From the NCBI GenBank assembly GCA_003054495.1, contig CP028514.1, forward strand, positions 670,501 through 734,500: a stretch of 64,000 nucleotides of DNA. The letters run 5' to 3'. Of this stretch, positions 50,599-64,000 are shown in pieces. Below the pieces are notes generated by a model, which was given only the letters and a program-made list of their open reading frames with translations, was not told the origin of the DNA and did no database searches. How positions within the stretch are numbered: position 1 is the first letter of the stretch; each line of letters begins with the position of its first letter. Source of the stretch: Carboxydocella thermautotrophica (GTDB lineage: Bacteria > Bacillota > GCA-003054495 > Carboxydocellales > Carboxydocellaceae). The translations under genes were made by a program, and so were the position numbers.

Positions 50599-51144
50599 AT
50601 GTTGTTAAGGGAAATCCTGGAAGCTAACCGGGAATTTGTCCAGCGCTGGGAACAGGAGCGGGAAGCCCGGCAGGCGGGCAAGTTGCCGGCCAAAAAACTG
50701 GCCATTTTCTCCTGTATGGATACCCGGCTAGTGGAAATGCTGGAGCCGGCCCTGGGTTTAAAACGGGGGGAAGCCAAGGTTATCAAAAATGCCGGTACTA
50801 TTTTAACCGAAGATGTGGTACGCAGCCTGGCCGTGGCTATCTATTTGCTGGGGGTAGAAGAGGTGGTGGTAATCGCCCACCTCGATTGCGGAATGGCCAA
50901 ACCGGATGCGGATAGGATGCGGCAGGCCATGCTGGCCCGGGGTGTGAAGCCGGAAGACCTGGAGGGTGTGGACCTGGCTGCCTGGCTTCAGGGCTTCGGG
51001 GAAGATTACCACGGCCATGTGCGAGAAGTGGTGGCAGGATTGCGCAATCACCCGCTTTTGCCTAAAGATATTCCTTATCATGGCCTTTTATTCTGTCCCG
51101 ATACCGGGCATCTGGAACTGGTAGTGGATGGGTATAAAGAGTAG
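50599..51144 (+). CDS. Beta-carbonic anhydrase family protein
   Basis: Protein of about 181 residues. The zinc ligands and dyad of beta-carbonic anhydrases are present: FSCMDTR (CxDxR) and IAHLDCGM (HxxC). Interconverts CO2 and bicarbonate, useful for biotin carboxylases. The region KVIKNAGTILTEDVVRSLAVA is typical. It is a short, minimal form. ATG at 50599 is preferred over GTG at 50590 by spacing to AGGGGG. It may be cotranscribed with the exchanger, whose stop is 21 bases away. Confidence 0.88.
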   Translation: MLLREILEANREFVQRWEQEREARQAGKLPAKKLAIFSCMDTRLVEMLEPALGLKRGEAKVIKNAGTILTEDVVRSLAVAIYLLGVEEVVVIAHLDCGMAKPDADRMRQAMLARGVKPEDLEGVDLAAWLQGFGEDYHGHVREVVAGLRNHPLLPKDIPYHGLLFCPDTGHLELVVDGYKE

Positions 51145-51264: not shown

Positions 51265-53535
51265 ATGAAAAAAATTAAGCCTACTTTTTTAAAACTCATA
51301 GCATCATACATTTTATTGACTTCTATTATCTTGCTTGTTACTACAGTAATTTTATATAAAGGTTATAAAGAACAAATTATTGAACAAGCAGATATAGCAT
51401 CCCAACAAATGCTTAGTCAAGCAAAGTATTACACTCAACATACGGAGAATTGGGCTAAATCATTCATTTATCAGCTTTATATTGATAAAGATATATATAA
51501 ATTAATGTATGAAACTAATCGGGATTATTCTCAAAATGTTTTAATCGGTATGATGAAAATTCGTCAAGCAGCCACTTTGGTGCCGCTTATACATTCAATT
51601 TATATTTATAATAATGTTAATAAAATGTTTTATTCTTCTCTCGGGAACAGTGCTGACCGATTTACATTTGAAGATCAAGGCATTGTAGAGTTATTAAAAG
51701 AAAATAATCAAACATTTAGCAGTAATTTAATCCCGCGTTATGTTGATTTTAACACCAATGGTTTGAAGTATAGAAAAAACCTGCTAACTATCATTCTTTC
51801 CAATGTGAAAAATACCCGTAATAATATGCCAGATGGTGCAATAATTATAAATATTGATGCTGATAATGTTGAAAGTTATTTCAAAAATAGTATTTCTGGT
51901 CAAAATAATCTTATTTTGGCTATAAACACTGGCGGAAAAATAATTTTTCATCCTGACCCTAAATTATATTTAACTAATATTTCTAATAAAAGTTATATTA
52001 AAAAAATTTTAAAGGAACACAAAACAGGAGGAAGTTTTATTCAAGAAATTAGTGGGAAACCTTCAATTGTTACGTTTTTGAAGTCACCACGTTCAGATTT
52101 GATTTTTATTAATATAACTGCTTACGATACTCTTCTTGGCACAATCAATAAAATGGTACGGCTGATTATTATAGTAATCATTTTAACTTTACTGATAGGT
52201 ATATTCTTTGCAATCTATTTATCGCGTAATATTTATCAACCTATTAACAAGGCTGTTAATTATTTAAAAGACATAGCACCAATGGACAGCTACAGAGATG
52301 AACTTGACTATTTGGTCCTTGCCGTGGATAAAATTTTAAACACTCCTTCATCTCTCAAAGATCTTTCAATAGAAGATAAAAAAATGATTAAAGAAAAGCT
52401 TTTACTTGGGATCGTCCTCGATACGATCGATGATTATGAAAAATTACAAGAAAAAATTGAAGAATTACAACTGAAAATTAGTAATAGTAATAGCTTTATT
52501 GTTATTGTCTTCAAGATTGATAATTATAAAGAAACTGGTCAATTTACCAACCATTTAGTTGAGTTTTTCGAAAGAGATGAAGTAGACTATGAGTTTTTAC
52601 AATTAGAAGATAGTGAGATAACATTAATTAAGGGTTTTACAACTTTAGTTTCTGTTCCTGATATTATAGAAAGCATCAGGCTAATACAGAATGAAATAAA
52701 ACAAAATCTAGGCATAACAGTATCAGCAGGCTTAGGGGAGTGTGTAGAAAGTTTAACAGAAATAAACAGATCATATAAAATAGCAAAAGAATGTTTAAAT
52801 TACCGCTATAAATATGGTAAAGAAAATATACTTTATTATGATAAAATTGTTTCAGAACTATCAGAGGGCTATAAATATAATAGTAACCTGGAACAGAACA
52901 TTTTTAACGCTCTGAAAATGGGTAACCTGACAAAAGTTGAAGAAGAATTAAATAAAATGTTAGCTGAAATCAAAAATTATACTTATCATGAAGTATTATT
53001 GGCTTTGACCCAATTGGCGTTAAATTCAAAGATTTTGATTACCAATTTGTCTCAGATGAGTAACCAGAGTTTGTATATTGACATCCAGGAATTTAAAAAA
53101 GTAATAGAAAATATGGAAGACCTGGATGAAGCAAAACAGTGGTTTATAGAACTATATAAAAATACCATAGAAAAACTAAAAGAAAAGAAAGTTAACCGCA
53201 AAAAAGATTTAATATATAATGTGATAAAATATATAGAAGAAAACTATCATGATCCCCAGTTATCACTGGAAATCATTGCTGAACATTTTGGGATTTCGCC
53301 TAATTATTTGCGGATGCAGTTTAAAGAAGCAGAAAACAAGTCCTTATCTGCTTATATTAACGAGTTGCGTTTTGAAAAGGCTAGACAATTGCTTGAAGAA
53401 ACCAGTTTAACTGTAAAAGAGATAGCAATTAAAGTTGGGTTTGAAAATTATAACTACTTTTATACTGCCTTCAAAAAATATTATGGCTTATCACCTAATC
53501 AGTTCCGTTTAAATATTGAAAAAAAGAATAAGTAG
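51265..53535 (+). CDS. Membrane-bound AraC-family regulator of the inositol locus
   Basis: Protein of 756 residues, one-component sensor. N-terminal helix (about 12-34), a large outer domain of Cache-like style (about 35-290), a second helix (about 297-320, LIIIVIILTLLIGIFFAIY), then a cytoplasmic linker. The C-terminal AraC DNA-binding domain (about 655-755) has LEIIAEHFGISPNYLRMQFKEA and TVKEIAIKVGFENYNYFYTAFKKYYGLSPNQF. This layout is shared with YesN/YtdP-type regulators of sugar loci. Very AT-rich with many Asn, Ile and Lys codons, unlike its neighbours, indicating separate ancestry. Likely activates the downstream ABC and catabolic genes; ligand unknown. Confidence 0.87.
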   Translation: MKKIKPTFLKLIASYILLTSIILLVTTVILYKGYKEQIIEQADIASQQMLSQAKYYTQHTENWAKSFIYQLYIDKDIYKLMYETNRDYSQNVLIGMMKIRQAATLVPLIHSIYIYNNVNKMFYSSLGNSADRFTFEDQGIVELLKENNQTFSSNLIPRYVDFNTNGLKYRKNLLTIILSNVKNTRNNMPDGAIIINIDADNVESYFKNSISGQNNLILAINTGGKIIFHPDPKLYLTNISNKSYIKKILKEHKTGGSFIQEISGKPSIVTFLKSPRSDLIFINITAYDTLLGTINKMVRLIIIVIILTLLIGIFFAIYLSRNIYQPINKAVNYLKDIAPMDSYRDELDYLVLAVDKILNTPSSLKDLSIEDKKMIKEKLLLGIVLDTIDDYEKLQEKIEELQLKISNSNSFIVIVFKIDNYKETGQFTNHLVEFFERDEVDYEFLQLEDSEITLIKGFTTLVSVPDIIESIRLIQNEIKQNLGITVSAGLGECVESLTEINRSYKIAKECLNYRYKYGKENILYYDKIVSELSEGYKYNSNLEQNIFNALKMGNLTKVEEELNKMLAEIKNYTYHEVLLALTQLALNSKILITNLSQMSNQSLYIDIQEFKKVIENMEDLDEAKQWFIELYKNTIEKLKEKKVNRKKDLIYNVIKYIEENYHDPQLSLEIIAEHFGISPNYLRMQFKEAENKSLSAYINELRFEKARQLLEETSLTVKEIAIKVGFENYNYFYTAFKKYYGLSPNQFRLNIEKKNK

Positions 53536-53882: not shown

Positions 53883-54887
53883 ATGATGAAGAAATTTTTA
53901 AAGATCATTAGTTTAATAGTAATTTTGTCATTGGTAGTTGCCGGTTGTGGAACTAAAAAGAATGAAACAGCGCAAAACAACAATGAACAAAACAGCGGAG
54001 CTACACAACAGAAACCCAAAATTGCAGTAGTATTAAAGGCAGTGAACAGTGACTACTGGAAGATTGTGCAAGCAGGGGCAATGGATGCTGCCAAAGCTCT
54101 GGGAGTTGAGGTAGAAGTTTTGGGTCCCAATGCCGAAACGGATATTGCTGGGCAAACTTCTATAATGGAAGACCAAATTGTCAAGAAAGTATCGGCTCTG
54201 GTAGTAGCACCTTCCCAGCCAAGCGCTGCCGTTGCGACTTTTGATAAAGCCGATGCAGCCGGCATTCCGGTACTCTTAATTGATACTGATGCTAATTGGG
54301 ATAAGAAGAAGTCCTTTATCGGTACCGGTAATTTCGCCGGTGGCAAAATCGGGGGCAAATTTTTGGCCGAAAAATTAGGTAAGGGTGCTGAAGTGGTAAT
54401 CATTCGCGGTGCTTTGGGCGATGCTACCCATGATGAACGGGTTAACGGTGCCAAGGAAGAATTGGAAGCTGCCGGTTTAAAAGTGGTTGCCATTCAACCC
54501 GCTAACAGTGACAGGAATATGGGTATGTCAGTAATGGAAAACCTGCTGCAAACTTATCCTAATGTCAAAGGGGTATTTGCTTCTAATGATGAAATGGCTC
54601 TGGGGGCGGTAAGAGCGTTGAAGCAAGCCAAAAAGACTGATGTGGTAGTTGTTGGTTTTGACGGTTCGCCGGATGCCTTAAAGTCTATTAAAGCCGGGGA
54701 ATTAAGTGGTTCTGTGGCGCAAAGTCCCTATAATATCGGTAAATTTGGCGTAGAAGCTGCTGTCAAAGTGGTAAAGGGAGAAACAATCGAAAAGCGGATT
54801 GATACTGGCACCAGCATGATTACAAAAGATAATGTGGATCAAGCTATCTCTGATTTGGAAAAAATTCTGGGCAAAAAAATTAACTAA
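53883..54887 (+). CDS. Sugar/polyol ABC transporter substrate-binding lipoprotein (RbsB type)
   Basis: Periplasmic-binding-protein-like lipoprotein of 334 residues. Signal with lipobox VVAGC (Cys about residue 22), Asn/Gln-rich tether, then the type I SBP fold. It has KIAVVLKAVNSDYWKIVQAG, a hinge region VSALVVAPSQPSAAVA, a central VIIRGALGDATHDERVNGAKEE and the late VVVGFDGSPDALKSIKAG. Homologues bind ribose, xylose or myo-inositol. The downstream iolB and iolD make inositol or an inositol isomer the likely ligand. GGGGAGG upstream; ATG at 53883 or 53886. Confidence 0.88.
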   Translation: MMKKFLKIISLIVILSLVVAGCGTKKNETAQNNNEQNSGATQQKPKIAVVLKAVNSDYWKIVQAGAMDAAKALGVEVEVLGPNAETDIAGQTSIMEDQIVKKVSALVVAPSQPSAAVATFDKADAAGIPVLLIDTDANWDKKKSFIGTGNFAGGKIGGKFLAEKLGKGAEVVIIRGALGDATHDERVNGAKEELEAAGLKVVAIQPANSDRNMGMSVMENLLQTYPNVKGVFASNDEMALGAVRALKQAKKTDVVVVGFDGSPDALKSIKAGELSGSVAQSPYNIGKFGVEAAVKVVKGETIEKRIDTGTSMITKDNVDQAISDLEKILGKKIN

Positions 54888-54956: not shown

Positions 54957-56453
54957 ATGATCCGGCCTTTTTTAGAGCTTAAAGGTGTATCTAAAGTATT
55001 TCCTGGAGTAAAAGCACTTGATGCGGTGGATTTAGAGATTTACCCCGGGGAAGTTCATGGTCTGATTGGTGAAAACGGCGCCGGAAAATCAACGTTAATT
55101 AAAATTTTAACCGGCGCTCATAAGCATGATGCCGGTCAGATTTTTATTGAAGGGCAAGAAATAAAAATTCTCAATACCAAAAAGGCAATGGAACTTGGAA
55201 TTACTGCGATATACCAGGAACTTAACATAGTTAAAGAATTGTCTGTATATGAAAATGTTTTTCTTGGGCGAGAAATAAAAAAGAATAACGGCAAATCTGT
55301 ATTTTTGGATATCAACCTGATGAAAGAAAAGTCCCGGCAGCTGTTAAGTGAGCTCGGGCAAAATATCGACCCCGGTGTAAATATCGGAACCTTAGGAATT
55401 GGCAAACAACAAATGGTGGAAATAGCCAAGGCTTTATCGGTTCAAACCAGGTTATTAATTATGGATGAACCTACGTCCAGTCTAAGTGGAAAGGAAGTCA
55501 GGGAACTTTTAAAAACGGTTAAAGAGTTAAAAAACAAAGGTATTGGTATTATCTTTATTTCCCATCGGTTGGATGAGGTAATGGAGATATGTGACCGCAT
55601 TACAGTTATGCGGGATGGAAAAAAAATTACCACAATGCTGGCCCGGGAGGCTACCGTGGACGAGTTAATTAAATTGATGGTGGGAAGAAGCCTGGAGCAA
55701 CAATTTCCCAAAATTAAAGTCACGCGCGGGGAAGAGATTTTAAGAGTTGAAAAATTAACCCGTCAGGGTGTTTTTAAAGATGTAAGTTTTTCGCTTTATC
55801 GCGGGGAAATCCTGGGCATTGCCGGTTTGGTGGGTTCGGGAAGAACGGAAGTAGCCAGGGCGATTTTTGGAGCTGATGAACTGGATAGTGGTGAGATTTA
55901 TATAAAGGGACAGAAAGTGCAAATCAAATCACCTAAAGATGCCATGAAGTACGGAATTGCTTTCTTAACTGAGGATCGTAAAGGGCAGGGCCTGGTTCTG
56001 GATAACACAGTGGATTTCAATATGAATCTGGCCGTTTATGACAAAGATAAATCAATGCTGCTTGATTTAAAAAAATTAAAAGAATTAACTATGAAAAATA
56101 TTAAGAAGCTAAATTTGAATCCTCCTTCTGCCAGCTTTATTGTCAGGCAGCTCAGTGGAGGTAACCAGCAAAAAGTGGTTATCGGTAAATGGTTAAATAC
56201 CAATGCCAGTATTTATATTTTCGATGAGCCTACCCGCGGAATTGATGTTGGTGCCAAAGTGGAAGTTTATAATGTGATCAACGAACTGGTAGCAGGCGGT
56301 GCGGCGGTTATTATGATTTCTTCCGAATTGCCGGAGCTATTAGGTATGTCAGACAGAATTATTGTTATGAGCGAGGGCAAAGTGACTGCGGAATTGATGA
56401 GAGACCAAGCCAATCAGGAAAATATTATGAGAGCAGCAACAGGGGGAGTTTGA
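54957..56453 (+). CDS. Sugar/polyol ABC transporter ATPase (RbsA/MglA type)
   Basis: Double-ATPase subunit of 498 residues. First half: Walker A GENGAGKSTLIKIL, signature region GIGKQQMVEIAKALS, Walker B LLIMDEPTSSLS. Second half: degenerate Walker A GLVGSGRTEVARAI, LSGGNQQKVVIGKWL and IFDEPTRGIDVGAK. This is the normal layout for monosaccharide importers. Between SBP and permease in one operon. AGGTG upstream of ATG. Confidence 0.93.
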   Translation: MIRPFLELKGVSKVFPGVKALDAVDLEIYPGEVHGLIGENGAGKSTLIKILTGAHKHDAGQIFIEGQEIKILNTKKAMELGITAIYQELNIVKELSVYENVFLGREIKKNNGKSVFLDINLMKEKSRQLLSELGQNIDPGVNIGTLGIGKQQMVEIAKALSVQTRLLIMDEPTSSLSGKEVRELLKTVKELKNKGIGIIFISHRLDEVMEICDRITVMRDGKKITTMLAREATVDELIKLMVGRSLEQQFPKIKVTRGEEILRVEKLTRQGVFKDVSFSLYRGEILGIAGLVGSGRTEVARAIFGADELDSGEIYIKGQKVQIKSPKDAMKYGIAFLTEDRKGQGLVLDNTVDFNMNLAVYDKDKSMLLDLKKLKELTMKNIKKLNLNPPSASFIVRQLSGGNQQKVVIGKWLNTNASIYIFDEPTRGIDVGAKVEVYNVINELVAGGAAVIMISSELPELLGMSDRIIVMSEGKVTAELMRDQANQENIMRAATGGV

Positions 56454-57449
56454 ATGGGAGACTTAAATCAGCGCTTTCAATTGAATGAGGGTATGACACT
56501 TAAAAACGCAGTATCAAAATTTGGGTCACTCCTTGGCTTATTATTGCTTTCAATTATACTGGCCCTTGCTTCCGACCATTTTCTGACTTTGGATAACCTG
56601 ATGAATATTGCCCGGCAATCAGCTATAAACAGTTTAATCTCCATGGGGATGTTATTGACAATATTAACGGCCGGTATTGACCTATCGGTAGGCTCTATTT
56701 TGGCTTTGTCGACAATGGTCATGGGAGTGACTACCGTTACCTGGGGATTAAATCCCTTTCTGGGCATTCTGGCCGGAATTTTAACCGGTACAGCCTTGGG
56801 ATTGTTAAACGGCTTGTTATTAACCAAACTGAAATTACCCCACCCTTTTATTTCTACCCTTGGTACTAAAAACATTGCCCGGGGTTTAGCTCTTATAATA
56901 ACCGGGGCCACTCCAATTTCCGGTTTTCCCAGGTCAATCCAGTTCATAGGTTCGGAATTTATCGGACCGGTGCCGGTGAGTTTTATTCTTGTCATAATCA
57001 TGTGTATTCTATTTGCTGTTTTCCTCAATCGTACCGCCTATGGTAAACACATTTATGCCGTGGGTGGGAACCTGGAAGCTGCCAAACTTTCCGGGATAAA
57101 TGTGGAAAAAACTTTAGTGATGGTTTATACCATCTCCGGGACCATGGCGGCAATTGCCGGGCTTGTTCAGGTAGGCCGGGTTAATGCAGCTTTTCCCCTG
57201 GCCGGTCTGGATTATGATCTGGATGCCATTGCGGCAGTAATCATCGGTGGCGCTTCTTTTATGGGCGGTCAAGGAACTGTTTGGGGAACCCTGATTGGAG
57301 CAATGATTATGGCAGTATTGCGCAATGGCTTGAATCTGCTTGGGGTTTCTGCCGATTTGCAAACTGTAGCCATCGGTATTGTTATCATTGGGGCAGTTTA
57401 TGTAGATGTTTTACGCAGACAAGCTTTGAAGAAAGCCAAAGCAAACTAA
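56454..57449 (+). CDS. Sugar/polyol ABC transporter permease (RbsC type)
   Basis: Membrane permease of 331 residues with eight to ten helices. Motifs: LMNIARQSAINSLISMGMLLTIL, GIDLSVGSILALS and the ATPase contact region AVGGNLEAAKLSGINV. The ATG starts right after the ATPase stop with GGGGGAG upstream. Completes the importer. Confidence 0.93.
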   Translation: MGDLNQRFQLNEGMTLKNAVSKFGSLLGLLLLSIILALASDHFLTLDNLMNIARQSAINSLISMGMLLTILTAGIDLSVGSILALSTMVMGVTTVTWGLNPFLGILAGILTGTALGLLNGLLLTKLKLPHPFISTLGTKNIARGLALIITGATPISGFPRSIQFIGSEFIGPVPVSFILVIIMCILFAVFLNRTAYGKHIYAVGGNLEAAKLSGINVEKTLVMVYTISGTMAAIAGLVQVGRVNAAFPLAGLDYDLDAIAAVIIGGASFMGGQGTVWGTLIGAMIMAVLRNGLNLLGVSADLQTVAIGIVIIGAVYVDVLRRQALKKAKAN

Positions 57450-57467: not shown

Positions 57468-58496
57468 ATGGTTAAAGTAGGTGTAGTAGGTTATGGTGTA
57501 ATCGGACAACGTCTGGCTGACGGGGTAAAACTACAAAAAGACATGGAGCTTGTAGGAGTTGCGGATGTGGCTCCCACTCTGGCGGTAAGGGCTTTGAAGG
57601 AAAAAGGTATGCCCTATGATTTATATCTTGCTGTTCCGGAAAATAAACCCAAATTTGATGAACTGGGTATCCCCGTATCCGGTACTCTGGAAGATCTGGT
57701 GCAAAAATGTGATATCATCCTGGACGCTACCATTGCCGGTGTCGGAGCAAAAAACAAAGAGATTTATAAAAAGTATGGTAAAAAAGCTGTTTTCCAGGGT
57801 GGCGAAAAAAATGATGTGGCCGATGTATTTTTCCATGGTTATGCCAACTACGAAAAAGGTTTGGGCAAGCAATTTTTAAAACTGACATCATGTAACACTA
57901 CCGGTCTAATCCGTGCTGTAGATTGCCTGGATCGTGCCGTGGGTATTGAAAAAGTTGCTATCACTATCATCAGAAGAGTGGCAGATCCTGGCGATTATCA
58001 CCGGGGCCTGACCAATGCTTTGCAGGTTGAAAAGGCACCCAACCACCAGGCGGTGGATTTAATGACGATTATGCCCCATATTGACGCTACTGGTATCCTG
58101 GTACACACCCCTGTTACCCATGGCCATATAATTACGGTTTTGGCCACCCCTAAACAAGATCTTTCCGTTGAGGAAGCCATCAAGCTCTTTAATGCCCATC
58201 CGCGGATCAGAGTTGTTCGGATAGCTGACGGGTTCCAGGGCAATGCCGCTCTCTTCCGTTATGCCAGAGATCTGGGCAATCCCCGTGGAGACATGTATGA
58301 AATTGCAGTCTTTGAAGAAACGATTGTCAAATCCGGTCGCGATATTATGTTCGCTATTAATATTCCCCAGGAAGCAGTGGTTATTCCTGAAAGCATGGAT
58401 GCTATCCGGGCTGCACTGGAACTGCAAACTGACCGTCTGGAAGCGGTAGGCAAAACTAACGAGTATTTGGGGATGGGAAAATGGATGCAAAAGTAA
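57468..58496 (+). CDS. Archaeal-type (type II) GAPDH homologue
   Basis: Aldehyde dehydrogenase of 342 residues homologous to archaeal phosphorylating glyceraldehyde-3-phosphate dehydrogenase. N-terminal Rossmann motif GVVGYGVIGQRLADG (residues 5-19), catalytic Cys 142 in LTSCNTTGLIR, Arg 169-170 in IIRRVADPGDYHRG, and His 218/220 in TPVTHGHI. Compared with the archaeal consensus as I remember it (RRAADP...KKGP, PSHHGPD), this protein has HRGL at 178-181 and NHQAVD at 192-197, changes close to the substrate phosphate pocket. It is the first enzyme gene after the importer and overlaps the PGK gene by 16 bases. The role may be oxidation of glyceraldehyde 3-phosphate or of a carboxylate analogue (see findings). 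Confidence 0.85.
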   Translation: MVKVGVVGYGVIGQRLADGVKLQKDMELVGVADVAPTLAVRALKEKGMPYDLYLAVPENKPKFDELGIPVSGTLEDLVQKCDIILDATIAGVGAKNKEIYKKYGKKAVFQGGEKNDVADVFFHGYANYEKGLGKQFLKLTSCNTTGLIRAVDCLDRAVGIEKVAITIIRRVADPGDYHRGLTNALQVEKAPNHQAVDLMTIMPHIDATGILVHTPVTHGHIITVLATPKQDLSVEEAIKLFNAHPRIRVVRIADGFQGNAALFRYARDLGNPRGDMYEIAVFEETIVKSGRDIMFAINIPQEAVVIPESMDAIRAALELQTDRLEAVGKTNEYLGMGKWMQK

Positions 58497-59749
58497 ACAT
58501 CGGAATCAGAACCATGGATGAATTTGACTACAGCGGCAAAAGGGTTTTGCTACGGCTGGATATCAATTCCCCCATCGATCCGGTAACTAAAAAAATCGTT
58601 AATGAAAACCGGATTAACATGAGTATTCCTACCCTTAAATACCTGCTGGACAGAGGGGCTAAAGTAGCCATCATAGCCCATCAGGGGGATACCCTGGATT
58701 ATCATAACTTGATTCCTTTGCAGGAACATGCGGAAAAACTTTCACTCAAATTGGGAAAAACAATCCGTTATATTGATGATGTCTGCGGGCCAGCCGCTCA
58801 GGAAGAGATAAAGAAGTTGATGCCCGGGGAGGCAATTTTGCTCGGTAATTTACGTTATCTGACCGAAGAAGTTTCTACCTTTGAAAAAGATGTAAAATTA
58901 CAGCCTGCGGAAATGTTGAACACTTATTTAGTAAGAAGCCTGGCGCCATTGTTTGATTACTATGTTAATGATGCTTTTGCAGCTGCTCATCGCAATGCCC
59001 CTTCCATGGTCGCCTTTCAGGAAATTTTGCCTTCGGCTGGCGGGATGTTGCTGATTCAGGAGCTAAATGCTTTGATCAGGGTTAGGGAAAATCCTGACAA
59101 ACCGGCAGTTTTTGTTCTGGGGGGCCTGAAAATATCTGATGCCTTCGGCATGATGAAACAAGCTCTGCAAAGCGGTACGGCAGATAAAATCCTGGCCTGC
59201 GGGGTAACCGGTCATATTATGTTAATTGCTGCCGGCTACGATATCGGGAGTAAAAACACTAAATTTATTTATGACCGTTCCCTGGATGTATTTATTCAAC
59301 CAGCAAAAGAGTACTTACGAGATTATCCCGGTAAAATTGTTTATCCTGTTGACCTGGCTTATGAAAATGATGGCCAAAGAGCGGAAATAGATATTGAAAA
59401 CCTGCCAGCTGATGAGCTCTGTATGGATATCGGACAAAAAACCATTGCTATCTTTAAAAATGAGTTAGCGTCTGCAGGCACCATTTTCGTCAATGGTCCG
59501 GCCGGGGTTTATGAAAATCCTCTCTTTGCCGATGGTACCAGAGAAATCTGGGAAGCCATTGCCAACAGTAAGGGATATTCGGTCATCGGGGGCGGTGATA
59601 CGGTCAGCGCAGCCCAGAGGTTTATTGATACTTCCAAAATTGATTATGTATGTACCGCGGGCGGAGCAATGGTCAGATTTTTATCCGGTGTCAAACTACC
59701 CTTGCTTGAAGCAATGAGAAAGGGGTGGACCAATGCTAAGCAGGGATAA
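58481..59749 (+). CDS. Archaeal-type phosphoglycerate kinase homologue
   Basis: Acyl-phosphate kinase-type protein of 422 residues. PGK features: RVLLRLDINSPID at 21-33, Arg 44 (NENRINMSIPT), NLRYLTEEV, VNDAFAAAHRNAPSMVAF, VLGGLKISDAF and GPAGVYENPLF, and a nucleotide-binding GGGDTVSAA. The sequence is of the archaeal branch. At 67-71 it reads HQGDT where archaeal PGKs usually have HQGKP or HQGRP, so a positively charged residue in the phosphoglycerate site is replaced by Asp 70. Overlaps the GAPDH homologue (16 bases) and the transketolase gene (17 bases). Reaction may be ATP formation from 1,3-bisphosphoglycerate or from another acyl phosphate. Confidence 0.85.
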   Translation: MDAKVNIGIRTMDEFDYSGKRVLLRLDINSPIDPVTKKIVNENRINMSIPTLKYLLDRGAKVAIIAHQGDTLDYHNLIPLQEHAEKLSLKLGKTIRYIDDVCGPAAQEEIKKLMPGEAILLGNLRYLTEEVSTFEKDVKLQPAEMLNTYLVRSLAPLFDYYVNDAFAAAHRNAPSMVAFQEILPSAGGMLLIQELNALIRVRENPDKPAVFVLGGLKISDAFGMMKQALQSGTADKILACGVTGHIMLIAAGYDIGSKNTKFIYDRSLDVFIQPAKEYLRDYPGKIVYPVDLAYENDGQRAEIDIENLPADELCMDIGQKTIAIFKNELASAGTIFVNGPAGVYENPLFADGTREIWEAIANSKGYSVIGGGDTVSAAQRFIDTSKIDYVCTAGGAMVRFLSGVKLPLLEAMRKGWTNAKQG

Positions 59750-60581
59750 AATTCAGCAATTGGAAGCCTTTGCGACCAAAATCAGGATGGAAACTATCAG
59801 AGCTATCGGGCATCTGGGCTTTGGTCACGTCGGTGGATCTATGTCCATTGCCGATACGGTGGCGGTATTATACGGGGAAGTAATGCGGGTAGATCCCCAA
59901 AATCCCCGCTGGGAAGACAGAGACTGGCTGTTCTGTTCCAAAGGGCATGCGGGACCGGCAATTTATGCGGCTCTGGCTTTAAAAGGTTTTTTCCCGCTAG
60001 AAGAATTGCTGACGTTAAATAAACCGGGGACTAAACTGCCCAGTCACTGTGACCGTAATTTGACTCCTGGCGTGGATATGACAACCGGCTCCCTGGGCCA
60101 GGGAGCCTCCACCGCCCTGGGGGTGGCTTTAGGTAACAAGTTGGACGGCAGAGAAAGTTATACGTATTTAATTCTTGGCGATGGCGAAATGCAGGAAGGG
60201 CAGGTCTGGGAAGCTATTCTCTATGCTGCCCAGAAGCAACTGGATAATTTGATTGTGTTCGTAGACTACAACAAAAAGCAGCTGGATGGAAATATCCAGG
60301 ACATTAATGACCTGGGAGATCTGAAAGCCAAGTTTGCCTGTTTTAACTGGCATGCCCAGGAAGTGGACGGCCACAATGTAGAGGAAATCTACACGGCCAT
60401 TCTCAAGGCCAAAGAAGTAAAACACCGGCCTTCAGTAATAATACTGCATACTATTAAAGGTAAAGGGTGTAATTTTGCCGAACAGGCTGCGGCAAACCAC
60501 CATATGGTTGTAAGCCGGGAGCAGGCAGAAGCAGCAATTGCTTTTCTGGAGAAAGAGCTGGAAAAGGTGGTGCAGCAATGA
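59733..60581 (+). CDS. Transketolase, N-terminal (ThDP-binding) subunit
   Basis: Split transketolase, 282 residues: the part binding the thiamine diphosphate pyrophosphate. It has IRAIGHLGFGHVGGSMSIAD, SKGHAGPAIYAALALKGF, and the ThDP motif LGDGEMQEGQVWEAILYAAQKQLDNLIVFVDYN. Further along comes TIKGKGCNFAE. Together with the next gene (ATGA overlap) it forms a full enzyme transferring a two-carbon ketol unit. Located between the PGK homologue and iolB, so substrate may belong to inositol breakdown. Confidence 0.93.
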   Translation: MLSRDKIQQLEAFATKIRMETIRAIGHLGFGHVGGSMSIADTVAVLYGEVMRVDPQNPRWEDRDWLFCSKGHAGPAIYAALALKGFFPLEELLTLNKPGTKLPSHCDRNLTPGVDMTTGSLGQGASTALGVALGNKLDGRESYTYLILGDGEMQEGQVWEAILYAAQKQLDNLIVFVDYNKKQLDGNIQDINDLGDLKAKFACFNWHAQEVDGHNVEEIYTAILKAKEVKHRPSVIILHTIKGKGCNFAEQAAANHHMVVSREQAEAAIAFLEKELEKVVQQ

Positions 60582-61543
60582 AAGCAATCCTTGCAGAACA
60601 GAGAATAGCAGAAGCAAAGGAAATGCGTAGCGTTTATTGTGAAACCCTGATGGAACTGGCTCAGAAGGACCCAAGGATTGTAGTACTGGATGCAGATTTG
60701 ATGAGCTCGATGGGAATGGTCCCTTTTGCCAAAGCTTTTCCGGAGAGAACATTCAATGTGGGGGTTCAGGAAGCCAATATGATTGGCGTAGCAGCAGGGT
60801 TGTCGGCAACCGGCAAAATTCCTTTTGCTCACACCTTTGGACCCTTTGCTACCCGGCGCGTTTACGACCAGCTCTTTTTATCCTGCGCTTATGCCCGTTT
60901 AAATGTCAGAGTAACCGGCAGTGATCCAGGTGTAACTGCTGCCTTCAATGGCGGAACCCATATGCCCTTTGAAGATATGGGGATTGTCAGGAATATACCG
61001 GGAGTTACTATTCTGGAACCGGTGGACTCGGTGATGCTGAAAGATTTATTAACTCAAACGGTGGACATGTTTGGTGTGTTTTATATCAGGCTGTTGCGGA
61101 AAAACGCCATTAAGATTTATCAGGAAGGCTCCAGCTTTACAATTGGCAAAGGTATAACTTTACGAGATGGAGATGATGTTACTGTCTTTGCTACCGGCAT
61201 CATGGTGGATGAAGCCTTAAAGGCGGCCACAGAGCTAGAGCGGGAAGGGGTTTCCGTCAGGGTAGTCAATATTTTCACTTTAAAACCCATCGACAAAGAA
61301 CTTATAATCAAGTGTGCCCGGGAAACCGGAGCGCTTGTTACGGCTGAAAACCATAGCATCATCAACGGCCTGGGCTCGGCGGTAGCGGAAGTGATTGCTG
61401 AAAATTGCCCGGTACCATTAGAACGGGTAGGGGTAAATGACCTGTTTGGTGAAGTGGGCCCAGTTGATTACCTTAAAGAAAGATTTAATCTGACTGCTAA
61501 AGATATTGTAGCAAAAGTCCGTAAGGTTTTAGACAGAAAATAA
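60578..61543 (+). CDS. Transketolase, C-terminal subunit
   Basis: Second subunit, 321 residues, with the pyrimidine-binding domain containing the activating Glu in NVGVQEANMIGVAAGLS and the C-terminal transketolase domain (VTVFATGIMVDEALKAA, VSVRVVNIFTLKPIDKE). The segment VRVTGSDPGVTAAFNGGTH corresponds to the substrate channel. Start overlaps the N-subunit stop by four bases. Expected complex: alpha2beta2, cytoplasmic. Confidence 0.93.
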   Translation: MKAILAEQRIAEAKEMRSVYCETLMELAQKDPRIVVLDADLMSSMGMVPFAKAFPERTFNVGVQEANMIGVAAGLSATGKIPFAHTFGPFATRRVYDQLFLSCAYARLNVRVTGSDPGVTAAFNGGTHMPFEDMGIVRNIPGVTILEPVDSVMLKDLLTQTVDMFGVFYIRLLRKNAIKIYQEGSSFTIGKGITLRDGDDVTVFATGIMVDEALKAATELEREGVSVRVVNIFTLKPIDKELIIKCARETGALVTAENHSIINGLGSAVAEVIAENCPVPLERVGVNDLFGEVGPVDYLKERFNLTAKDIVAKVRKVLDRK

Positions 61544-61562: not shown

Positions 61563-62360
61563 ATGATGTACAGAATCAGAAGAGAAAGGCCTTTTGACTA
61601 CGGTTATAACCCCATCACCTCTCACGATGAACAAGAAAACAATACGTTGATGGATTTCGGTATTCTGAAACTGAAGTCCGGTCAGATAGAGACTTCGGCG
61701 GAAAGCAAGGAGCGGGCTTATTTATTAATCAGTGGCCGGGTTTTACTGGAGTGGCAGGGAAAAACTCAAGAAGTTGCCCGTCAATCCTTTTTAGAGGAAA
61801 ACCCCTGGGTGTTACACGTACCTCAGGGAGTGGAAGTGAAAATAACCGGAATTGGCCCAGATTCGGAGGTTTGTGTAATTAAAACCTTAAATAATGAGGA
61901 TTTTGAGCCCAAATTATATTCTCCGGCCGACTGTGCCTGTGAAGATCGGGGTAAAGGCAGTATGCAGGAAACTTCAACCCGGGTGGTAAGAACTGTATTT
62001 GATTATTCTAATGCTCCTTATTCCAGGCTGGTACTGGGAGAGGTAGTTAATTATCCTGGCAAATGGTCCAGTTATCCGCCCCATCACCATCTTCAACCGG
62101 AAATTTATTTTTATAAATTCTATCCGGAACACGGTTACGGTTTTGCCCAACTGGGAGAAGAGGTACTTAAGGTCAAACACAATGATACAATAAAAATTTT
62201 AGATAATGTTTCTCATCCGCAAGTGGCGGCGCCGGGATATGCCATGTTTTATGTCTGGGTAATCAGGCAACTGGATAATAATCCCTATATCACTCCAGTG
62301 TTTGAACCGGAGCATCTATGGGTTATGGAAAAAGATGCCAAAATATGGCCGGACAAATAA
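61563..62360 (+). CDS. iolB: 5-deoxy-glucuronate isomerase IolB
   Basis: Converts 5-deoxy-D-glucuronate to 2-deoxy-5-keto-D-gluconate in myo-inositol catabolism. It has 265 residues: double cupin with metal-binding His in WSSYPPHHHLQPEIYFYKF and later VSHPQVAAPGYAMFYVW, both typical for IolB. N-terminal MMYRIRRERPFDYGYNPI. ATG at 61563 or 61566; the upstream sequence GGTGGTGAG gives a modest ribosome site. Together with the next gene, iolD, it identifies the locus. Confidence 0.93.
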   Translation: MMYRIRRERPFDYGYNPITSHDEQENNTLMDFGILKLKSGQIETSAESKERAYLLISGRVLLEWQGKTQEVARQSFLEENPWVLHVPQGVEVKITGIGPDSEVCVIKTLNNEDFEPKLYSPADCACEDRGKGSMQETSTRVVRTVFDYSNAPYSRLVLGEVVNYPGKWSSYPPHHHLQPEIYFYKFYPEHGYGFAQLGEEVLKVKHNDTIKILDNVSHPQVAAPGYAMFYVWVIRQLDNNPYITPVFEPEHLWVMEKDAKIWPDK

Positions 62361-62381: not shown

Positions 62382-64000
62382 ATGAAAACCATTCGACTGA
62401 CAATGGCCCAGGCTTTAGTTAAATTTTTAGATAACCAGTATGTGGAGTTTGACGGCCAGGTGACGAAGTTTGTCAAAGGCGTGTTTTCCATTTTTGGCCA
62501 TGGTAATGTAACTGGTTTGGGCCAGGCCCTGGAAGAGCATAAAGGCAGCCTGGTGTTATATCAGGGCAGAAATGAACAGGGCATGGCTCATGCGGCCATT
62601 GCTTACGCCAAGCAAAAAAACCGGAGAGAAATTATCGCTTGTACCACTTCCATTGGCCCGGGAGCCTTGAATATGGTGACAGCTGCTGGTACAGCAACTG
62701 TGAATAGAATTCCTCTCTTATTATTGCCAGGGGATACATTTGCCTGCCGGCAACCGGACCCGGTATTACAACAAGTTGAAGATCCCACTGATTATACAAT
62801 CACTGCCAATGATGCCTTTAAACCAGTTTCCCGGTACTGGGACAGAATTACCCGGCCAGAGCAACTGATGACGGCAGCAATTAATGCCATGCGAGTGTTA
62901 ACCGATCCGGCCGAAACCGGTACCGTCACATTGTGTCTGCCGCAAGATGTTCAGGCCGAAGCTTACGATTATCCGATCGAGTTTTTTGCCAAACGAGTAC
63001 ATCACATTGAAAGAATGCTGCCTACTGCCGGGGCTGTTGCCAGAGCAGTTGAGTTAATAACCAGGAAAAAGAAACCTCTCCTGATTTGCGGTGGGGGAGT
63101 GGTTTATTCTGAAGCACAAGAGGAACTGAAGAATTTTGTAGAAGCTTTTCAAATACCTTTTGCGGAAACCCAGGCAGGTAAAGGCTTGCTGCCCTGGAAT
63201 CACAGCCTTAATCTCGGGGGAATCGGGGTAACAGGTACCCAGGCTGCCAATGAAATCGCCCGGGATGCTGACCTTGTTATTGCTGTAGGAACAAGGCTTT
63301 CCGATTTTACTACAACCTCAAAATGGGCTTTCCAGAATCCTGAGGTTGAAGTGTTAGCTATCAATGTCAATAAATTTGATGCCATGAAAATGAATGCTAC
63401 CTTTATTCAGGCTGATGCCGCTGAAGGGCTGAAGGCTTTGACAGAAGCCTTAAAAAAGGCAGGTTATCGTTCCGGTTATCAAGATGAAATCAGGGTTGCC
63501 AAGGAAAAATGGGACAGGGAAGTTGACCGCTTATATGCCATCGAGCTGGAGGAAGGATTGGCTCAGACAAGAGTATTAGGGGAACTGAACCGTTCAATTG
63601 GTGAAGATGCAATTATAGTTGGTGCTTCCGGCAGTTTACCTGGAGATTTACAGCGAATCTGGCGTCCGCTAAAACCCAAAACCTATCACATGGAATACGG
63701 TTTTTCCTGTATGGGGTATGAAGTAAGCGGGGCCCTGGGTGTAAAAATGGCAGAGCCTGACCGGGAAGTTTATGTTATGGTAGGGGACGGCAGTTATTTG
63801 ATGCTCCATTCCGAACTGGTAACCAGTATCCAGGAAGGCTATAAAATTAACATTATGCTCTTTGATAATAATGGTTTCCAGTGTATCAATAATCTGCAGC
63901 GCTCCCAGGGTATACCAACTTTTGGAACTGAGTTTAGATATCGCTCAGCAGAAACCGGCCGGTTAACGGGAGAATATATGGCGATTGATTTTGCAGCTAA
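62382..64000 (+). CDS. iolD: Trihydroxycyclohexane-1,2-dione hydrolase IolD (3' partial)
   Basis: ThDP-dependent ring-opening enzyme of inositol catabolism giving 5-deoxy-glucuronate. The frame runs from ATG 62382 beyond the window end (539 codons seen). Text closely parallels B. subtilis Iol[98 protein letters not shown] and the ThDP loop [29 protein letters not shown] precedes the start, 21 bases after iolB. Confidence 0.95.

Follow-up and report, generated by a model that had tools for sequence, protein, structure and literature searches.

The split transketolase (TK) considered here is encoded in a 64,000-nucleotide stretch of the Carboxydocella thermautotrophica genome (the window; G000:C1:670501-734500), within an operon that also carries inositol genes and that is proposed to form an alternative pathway of inositol breakdown. 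The operon genes all lie on one strand and run past the window end in the order araC, sugar substrate-binding protein (SBP), ATP-binding cassette (ABC) ATPase, permease, type II glyceraldehyde-3-phosphate dehydrogenase (GAPDH) homologue (GAPDH2), phosphoglycerate kinase (PGK) homologue (PGKx), the N- and C-terminal TK subunits (TKn and TKc), iolB-like, iolD, iolE, iolG, larA, pfkA and malic enzyme (Table 1). The remainder of iolD and the genes from iolE to malic enzyme lie beyond the window. Gaps of 347 nt and 69 nt separate araC from the SBP gene and the SBP gene from the ABC gene; from there to malic enzyme, each junction overlaps or spans at most 36 nt. An earlier note on this DNA, the original prediction, had placed a two-gene TK between a PGK homologue and iolB with overlapping starts. 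Its coordinates and adjacency hold, as do overlaps of 17 nt between PGKx and TKn and of 4 nt between TKn and TKc; the last junction departs from it, TKc and the iolB-like gene being separated by a gap of 19 nt.

The operon forms a unit that is present in one strain and absent from another. A second genome of the same species (G001) matches the window at 99.8% through base 51143, and from base 69699 onward (numbering continued beyond the window) at 99.9%; at the empty site (G001:C1 around 74,000), 27 nt separate the two matching flanks. The absent block measures 18.55 kb, from about 120 nt upstream of araC to about 20 nt past the malic enzyme stop, with its left edge at 51143/51144. With a GC content of 42.7%, it is poorer in GC than the 20 kb on its left side (52.5%) and the 17 kb on its right side (56.1%); acquisition is the probable origin of the block. 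Because the edges of the empty site bracket the block, LarA, PfkA and malic enzyme are gained or lost together with the TK and iol genes. The two strains, G000 with the block and G001 without it, are a natural pair for growth comparison.

The classical Bacillus-type myo-inositol pathway comprises IolG, IolE, IolD, IolB, IolC, IolJ and IolA. The window operon resembles it in the proposed steps to 5-dehydro-2-deoxy-D-gluconate (DKG), and its IolD, IolE and IolG pass their inositol equivalog cut-offs. It differs in that no IolC, IolJ or IolA was read in it; TK, GAPDH, PGK, LarA and malic enzyme would replace these. No gene in the genome exceeds the NCBIfam cut-off for iolC, the best being a PfkB kinase at C1:362589 (233 bits, cut-off 300), and none exceeds that for iolA, the best being an aldehyde dehydrogenase at C1:2424499 (249 bits, cut-off 448.5). 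Both are unlinked to the operon: the kinase sits in what reads as a maltose/sucrose-type operon, and the dehydrogenase lies beside a proline dehydrogenase gene in a setting that reads as proline degradation.

Table 1. Genes of the operon, with positions in the window and the profile or structure matches behind each name
Feature	Position	Strand	Evidence
AraC-type transcriptional regulator, first gene of the 18.55-kb block	51265..53535	+	HTH_18 83.6 bits, over cut-off; dCache_1 sensor domain 30.7 bits, under its cut-off of 45
Sugar ABC substrate-binding protein, ligand inferred	53883..54887	+	Peripla_BP_4; nearest solved chains are ribose-binding proteins
Sugar ABC ATP-binding protein	54957..56453	+	ABC_tran; xylose/ribose type, below equivalog cut-offs
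Sugar ABC permease	56454..57449	+	BPD_transp_2
GAPDH2, type II (archaeal-type) GAPDH homologue; proposed phosphorylating D-malate-semialdehyde dehydrogenase	57468..58496	+	NF003251 414 bits, cut-off 185
PGKx, PGK homologue; proposed D-malyl-phosphate:ADP phosphotransferase	58481..59749	+	PF00162 358 bits
TKn, split transketolase N-terminal (thiamine diphosphate) subunit, 282 aa	59733..60581	+	PF00456 Transketolase_N 184 bits; nearest solved chain 6yak
TKc, split transketolase C-terminal subunit, 321 aa	60578..61543	+	PF02779 Transket_pyr 105 bits; PF02780 Transketolase_C 113 bits
IolB-like isomerase, divergent; proposed DKG producer	61563..62360	+	PF04962 (KduI/IolB) 185 bits
iolD, cut by window end (full gene L004:14382-16244)	62382..64000	+	TIGR04377 1003 bits, cut-off 715
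iolE, past window end		+	442 bits, cut-off 290
iolG, past window end		+	495 bits, cut-off 355
larA, past window end		+	Malate-racemase family LarAH6 NF052593, 601 bits, cut-off 500
pfkA, past window end		+	Named from its sequence, without family search
Malic enzyme, past window end		+	NADP-dependent malic enzyme model 439 bits, cut-off 1178; longer profile covered in part only

Relatives of the operon and their phosphate sites

Relatives of the window GAPDH2 are found in several phyla. In a 398-genome set of its own phylum, 17 genomes match (own genome included), eight of them strongly (the own genome and seven others, at 62-87%) and nine weakly (E about 1e-5 to 1e-3). The relatives named below are the best 80 of 444 GAPDH2 matches, found from an alignment of the eight, and counts made on them favour close relatives of the bait. 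By their titles, these best 80 of 444 loci come from Firmicutes, Spirochaetes, Anaerolineae/Chloroflexi, Atribacteria, a metagenome-assembled genome (MAG) of Thermotogae, a Poribacteria MAG and others. The count covers 85 distinct loci, the window excluded and L037 and L038 dropped as duplicates of L044 and L123, with family labels assigned by BLAST identity thresholds. PGKx is present in 83 of them, LarA in 49, iolD in 38, TKn in 35, TKc in 34, iolB in 33 and malic enzyme in 26. TKn occurs with iolB or iolD in 27 of the 85 loci; both TK halves are present in 26 of these, and iolE or iolG also in 25. The association of TKn with iolB/iolD across the 85 loci gives p = 6e-7 in a Fisher test (27, 8, 11, 39; kinship ignored). 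PfkA is found in the window operon, in five of the 85 loci and next to L048. The IolB-like proteins of six relatives score 95-117 bits, all six below the IolB cut-off of 205 (seven of seven with the window protein); the IolB-like proteins of TK-type operons are a divergent set.

Fifteen carrier genomes, hand-chosen among those of the 80 named loci and some of them MAGs, allow the operon genes to be set beside the remaining genes of their hosts. In this set, iolC exceeds the cut-off in two genomes (those of L050 and L092) and iolA in one (that of L058).

Both subunits of the window TK carry TK domains by Pfam. Another split TK is encoded at G000:C1:2131662, so the operon enzyme is not the only transketolase of the genome, and on copy number the idea of a dedicated enzyme stands. 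Against the solved split TK of Carboxydothermus, the TKc of this second copy scores 434 bits and the window TKc 298 bits. The donor-phosphate site of TK is formed by residues that we take to be R358, S385, H461 and R520 in E. coli numbering. The window TKc has Asp116 at the H461 position and keeps the other ligands (R, S, R), so that its donor-phosphate site is incomplete; the TKc of the second copy has His there. Across 35 TKcs beside GAPDH2, the window included, this position holds Asp in 33 and Tyr in two (L040 and L042). Thirty further TK-family loci of the carrier genomes have His in 14 (12 split and two full-length), Asp in 11, Ser in two (L180 and L183) and Arg in three (long ones). Ten of the 11 with Asp adjoin PGKx by coordinates. 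The remaining one, L189 (G406:C61:50967), is a split TK without an adjoining PGKx match, in the genome of L062 (Caloramator quimbayensis). The original prediction had further assigned the TK to the inositol operon as a dedicated enzyme and judged a substrate without phosphate, or with a carboxylate, plausible. The existence of another split TK, the replacement of the donor-phosphate His by Asp and a gene content that points to DKG as the substrate all support this suggestion. The choice of DKG, the roles proposed for the GAPDH and PGK homologues and D-malate as the end product go beyond it.

A similar change is found in PGKx. This protein belongs to the PGK fold family, with an archaeal PGK (2cun) as its nearest solved chain, and the genome holds another PGK at C1:559978. 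The basic patch that binds the 3-phosphate in PGK presumably consists of H62, R65, R122 and R170; in the window PGKx the R65 position is Asp70, leaving the patch incomplete. Among 84 PGKx, the window included, this position is Asp in 74, Gly in five, Ser in four and Asn in one, and in none of the 84 is it Arg or Lys. The other three patch residues are kept across PGKx, except in L116 (Ile at the R170 position) and L099 (sequence cut short). Apart from PGKx, each of the 15 carrier genomes also encodes an ordinary PGK, and these proteins keep Arg (10) or Lys (5) at the R65 position, whereas the 15 PGKx (of 18 found) in the same comparison all have Asp. The second PGK of the window genome has Arg at this position, and the solved chain 2cun has Lys.

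GAPDH2 scores well above the cut-off of its family, has archaeal type II GAPDHs (2czc/1cf2) as its nearest solved chains, and retains an invariant catalytic Cys142 (8/8). Two further GAPDHs are encoded at C1:559379 and C1:1067086. When 86 GAPDH2 sequences are set against three archaeal chains (hand-copied sequences), the fixed or nearly fixed changes include K33 to D, L218H, M219G and H222I. The last three flank His220, which aligns with the archaeal His of that motif, and the change of K33 to D may bear on the cofactor. The operon pair thus resembles archaeal type II GAPDH and PGK in its nearest structures but differs from them in the region of the catalytic His of GAPDH and at a single position in the phosphate patch of PGK, changes that are conserved. 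A duplicate glycolytic set made of TK, GAPDH and PGK was considered and rejected on the changed phosphate-site residues in the operon TK and PGKx.

A proposed route from inositol to D-malate

In the proposed route, IolG, IolE and IolD together with the IolB-like enzyme would convert inositol to DKG. The split TK would then transfer the C2 unit of DKG to a sugar-phosphate aldehyde and release D-malate semialdehyde. The acceptor would most simply be glyceraldehyde-3-phosphate, giving xylulose-5-phosphate, which would enter the pentose phosphate pathway and then glycolysis via PfkA; the occurrences of PfkA fit such a re-entry through fructose-6-phosphate. GAPDH2 would oxidise D-malate semialdehyde to the acyl phosphate, D-malyl phosphate, and PGKx would move this phosphate to ADP, yielding ATP and D-malate. 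In the last steps, LarA would convert D-malate to L-malate, and malic enzyme would convert L-malate to pyruvate and CO2. Malonate semialdehyde was also considered as the substrate of GAPDH2 and PGKx, and was rejected since IolC and IolJ would be needed first.

The structure of DKG is compatible with such a cleavage. In DKG, the keto group is at C5 and C6 is a hydroxymethyl group; under ketose numbering, C3' and C4' have the D-threo arrangement of fructose-6-phosphate and xylulose-5-phosphate. From these established structures, Fischer reasoning indicates that TK would cleave DKG into the C2 unit and OHC-CHOH-CH2-COO(-) of D configuration. D-malate semialdehyde is D-glyceraldehyde-3-phosphate with a carboxylate replacing the phosphate. 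Since the stereochemistry of DKG predicts D-malate, a racemase or a D-malate dehydrogenase would be needed.

Genes of both families are found. The window LarA, whose nearest solved chain is 6d6z (Mar2), passes the malate-racemase equivalog cut-off, as do six of eight further LarAs tested. In the stretches examined, the 27 loci with TK and iol genes include 19 with LarA (nine also with malic enzyme), two with a TIGR02089 gene and neither LarA nor malic enzyme (L050 and L100), and six with none of these. One of the six, L048, when read further out has LarA (65%) and then pfkA directly after the module, which revises the tally to 20 with LarA, two with TIGR02089 and five with none. The TIGR02089 genes lie inside the operons of L050 (Clostridium ganghwense, 521 bits) and L100 (Thermotogae MAG, 545 bits; cut-off 470.4), where a further 14.7 kb and 16.4 kb, respectively, hold no LarA or malic enzyme match. 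The L050 protein is nearest to the solved tartrate dehydrogenase/decarboxylase 3flk. The two loci fit the expectation that, in the absence of LarA and malic enzyme, a gene of the tartrate/D-malate dehydrogenase family takes their place. A third such case suggested by BLAST, L120, was dropped, as it scores as an ordinary LeuB (523.5 bits, cut-off 353).

A single scheme accommodates the gene set, the empty site, the D-malate-dehydrogenase family gene in place of LarA and malic enzyme, and the altered phosphate pockets. At a probability of about 0.8, the operon would encode a complete alternative inositol pathway that runs via TK to D-malate and ATP. All its substrates and reactions are inferred from gene content, the unity of the block, the absence of iolC and iolA by cut-offs, the residue changes and their conservation.

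Several points weigh against this reading. The window IolB-like protein reaches 98 bits against the TIGR04378 cut-off of 205, so its product could differ, even with its Pfam KduI/IolB match. No iolJ was read among the operon open reading frames, and no genome-wide search for the class II aldolase (IolJ) family was made. The L050 genome carries two iolC genes over the cut-off. L074 has one TK half only, on the other strand. TKn, iolB and iolD are all absent from 39 of the 85 GAPDH2 loci, 37 of which have PGKx, so that other aldehyde sources or substrates must exist. Among the 35 module TKcs, the first Arg of the phosphate site is Lys in five, and the Ser is Ala in four and Cys in one. Asp or Ser at the H461 position also occurs in three split TKs that adjoin no PGKx match (L180, L183 and L189), so that this His is also lost outside the pathway. 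Asp would not be an expected ligand for a carboxylate, and the scheme does not explain how a single site could accommodate DKG as well as a phosphorylated acceptor. LarA was counted at an identity of at least 30%, and the spirochaete-type LarAs of L063 (390) and L078 (393) fall below the malate-racemase cut-off, which is still their best match. Five loci (L061, L106, L110, L117 and L121) lack LarA, malic enzyme and any TIGR02089-like gene within stretches that end 0.3-2.3 kb after the module and cover up to 10 kb before it. In addition, the TIGR02089 model is named tartrate dehydrogenase.

Some of these points would also suit a scheme of the same form with another ketose acid and end product, in which the IolB-like enzyme yields a different isomer and, with it, a different aldehyde or acid results, for example one of a tartrate type. 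The low IolB scores of the IolB-like proteins and the name of TIGR02089 agree with it, and so does the combination of TK-GAPDH2-PGKx-LarA in L040 and L042 with IolN, which belongs to a different inositol pathway. Characterised malate racemases epimerise tartrate too, according to work on the Mar2/LarAH6 family (PMC7583248; PMC11770544). A different product is nevertheless unlikely, because IolD, IolE and IolG exceed their equivalog cut-offs, the window LarA passes the malate-racemase cut-off with a malic enzyme gene in the same operon, and the pocket residues of the window TK and PGKx are unlike those of L040 and L042.

It is quite improbable that the operon supplies ordinary back-up TK, GAPDH and PGK to raise pentose-phosphate and glycolytic capacity, while unrecognised paralogues elsewhere perform the IolC, IolJ and IolA steps. 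The IolC-like kinase and the IolA-like aldehyde dehydrogenase do exist, but both sit in operons that read as other pathways. Moreover, other copies of TK, PGK and GAPDH are already present in the genome, and the phosphate-site residues changed in the operon TK and PGK are unchanged in the second split TK and the second PGK. A back-up role would also leave the malate racemase, or the D-malate-dehydrogenase type gene in its place, without a reason. An operon for a non-inositol substrate, such as another cyclitol or a deoxy-uronate, that borrows iol enzymes would agree with a solute-binding protein nearest to ribose-binding proteins and with a regulator that gives no hint of the inducer. Such a role is highly improbable given that IolG, IolE and IolD pass inositol equivalog cut-offs and that iolB or iolD recurs with TK in the 27 loci, nearly all of them with iolE or iolG.

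The proposed TK route to D-malate has parallels among known systems. In the sulfo-transketolase and apulose-4-phosphate transketolase pathways, a dedicated TK takes a C2 unit from an unusual ketose into central metabolism. The operon TK would act alike; it would differ in that its ketose is a carboxylate and in that the aldehyde is handled by GAPDH and PGK homologues with formation of ATP. TK-dependent sugar breakdown is known; the substrate and the ATP-forming pair would be new. The second half of the route has a worked precedent in L-carnitine degradation by Acinetobacter baumannii, in which, in the part of the report used here, malic semialdehyde is converted to D-malate and then to pyruvate with a D-malate dehydrogenase (PMC11353897). 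For the malate racemase Mar2/LarAH6, which the window LarA resembles, the in vivo role was left open in the sections consulted (PMC7583248; PMC11770544), and the words "transketolase" and "inositol" do not occur in the main texts of these two papers. In the window operon, this role would lie in inositol breakdown.

No paper on a transketolase inositol route was recognised in the open-access literature, as covered by the best-ranked matches to broad queries, with subscription papers and preprints mostly outside. A survey of inositol clusters defines them by iolB, iolC, iolD and iolE; in the portion of it used here, the fourth gene lies elsewhere in 810 of the 1,024 genomes having three, and incomplete sequence, assembly error and frameshift are offered as reasons for missing genes (PMC9430895). 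The word "transketolase" does not occur in that article. If true, the TK route could explain some of the iolB/D/E clusters without iolC.

Inositol is an abundant compound from plant phytate. The Thermotoga-type inositol pathway uses IolM and IolN; the window operon instead encodes IolD and an IolB-like protein, and no IolN was read there. If the TK route exists, it would be a third inositol route besides the Bacillus and Thermotoga types known to us, one without an inositol-specific kinase and with substrate-level phosphorylation on a malate derivative. By our accounting, three inositol would give five pyruvate, three CO2 and a net five ATP, to the level of pyruvate. It would also provide a physiological role for LarA malate racemases and call for re-annotation of the "GAPDH" and "PGK" pair that occurs in several phyla.

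Other versions of the GAPDH2-PGKx module

The chances are about even that GAPDH2 and PGKx form a module of general use, equivalent to the ATP-forming half of glycolysis but acting on carboxylates and running from D-malate semialdehyde via D-malyl-4-phosphate to ATP and D-malate, into which several phyla plug different front ends. As part of the same evenly balanced proposal, these front ends would be TK with IolB/IolD, TK with IolN, aldolases of the HpcH/HpaI kind, and E1/E2/E3 complexes, perhaps with a function like that of acetoin dehydrogenase.

One such version is found in L039 (L039:5206-14783), L123, L046 and L086, where GAPDH2, PGKx, LarA and malic enzyme lie near lipoyl E2 genes (Pfam on L039 and L046 only) and no TKn/TKc pair exceeds the thresholds. 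In L039, genes for E1 alpha/beta and E3 stand beside E2, and a molybdopterin hydroxylase is also present. The R65 position of PGKx is Ser in L039, L086 and L123 and Asp in L046. The lipoyl E2 genes suggest another thiamine-dependent front end. A second version occurs in L114 (L114:1724-5607), L077, L086, L087, L089, L090 and L116, in which GAPDH2 lies near an HpcH/HpaI aldolase gene, an Asp/Glu racemase family gene, or both (BLAST clusters; Pfam on L114 only). Here, an aldolase is perhaps the source of malate semialdehyde.

In L040 (L040:7082-13785) and L042 (L042:3870-12407), TK-GAPDH2-PGKx-LarA is found with IolN (554 and 539 bits, cut-off 245), a likeness to the Thermotoga-type pathway, and no IolD or IolB exceeds the thresholds. 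These two loci are the ones with Tyr at the H461 position of TKc, and their PGKx has Gly at the R65 position, residues hinting at a tartrate-type product. The product of IolN is 5-keto-L-gluconate, whose stereochemistry does not fit a TK donor without an extra epimerisation.

Eight loci from Clostridia-type MAGs (L097, L098, L102, L105, L107, L108, L111 and L113) carry GAPDH2-PGKx with Asp at the R65 position, and no TK, iol, LarA or malic enzyme gene exceeds the thresholds in their neighbourhood. In three operons of the Anaerolineae type, a ROK-family sugar kinase gene follows LarA (L067:17060-17956, by Pfam; also L055 and L060).

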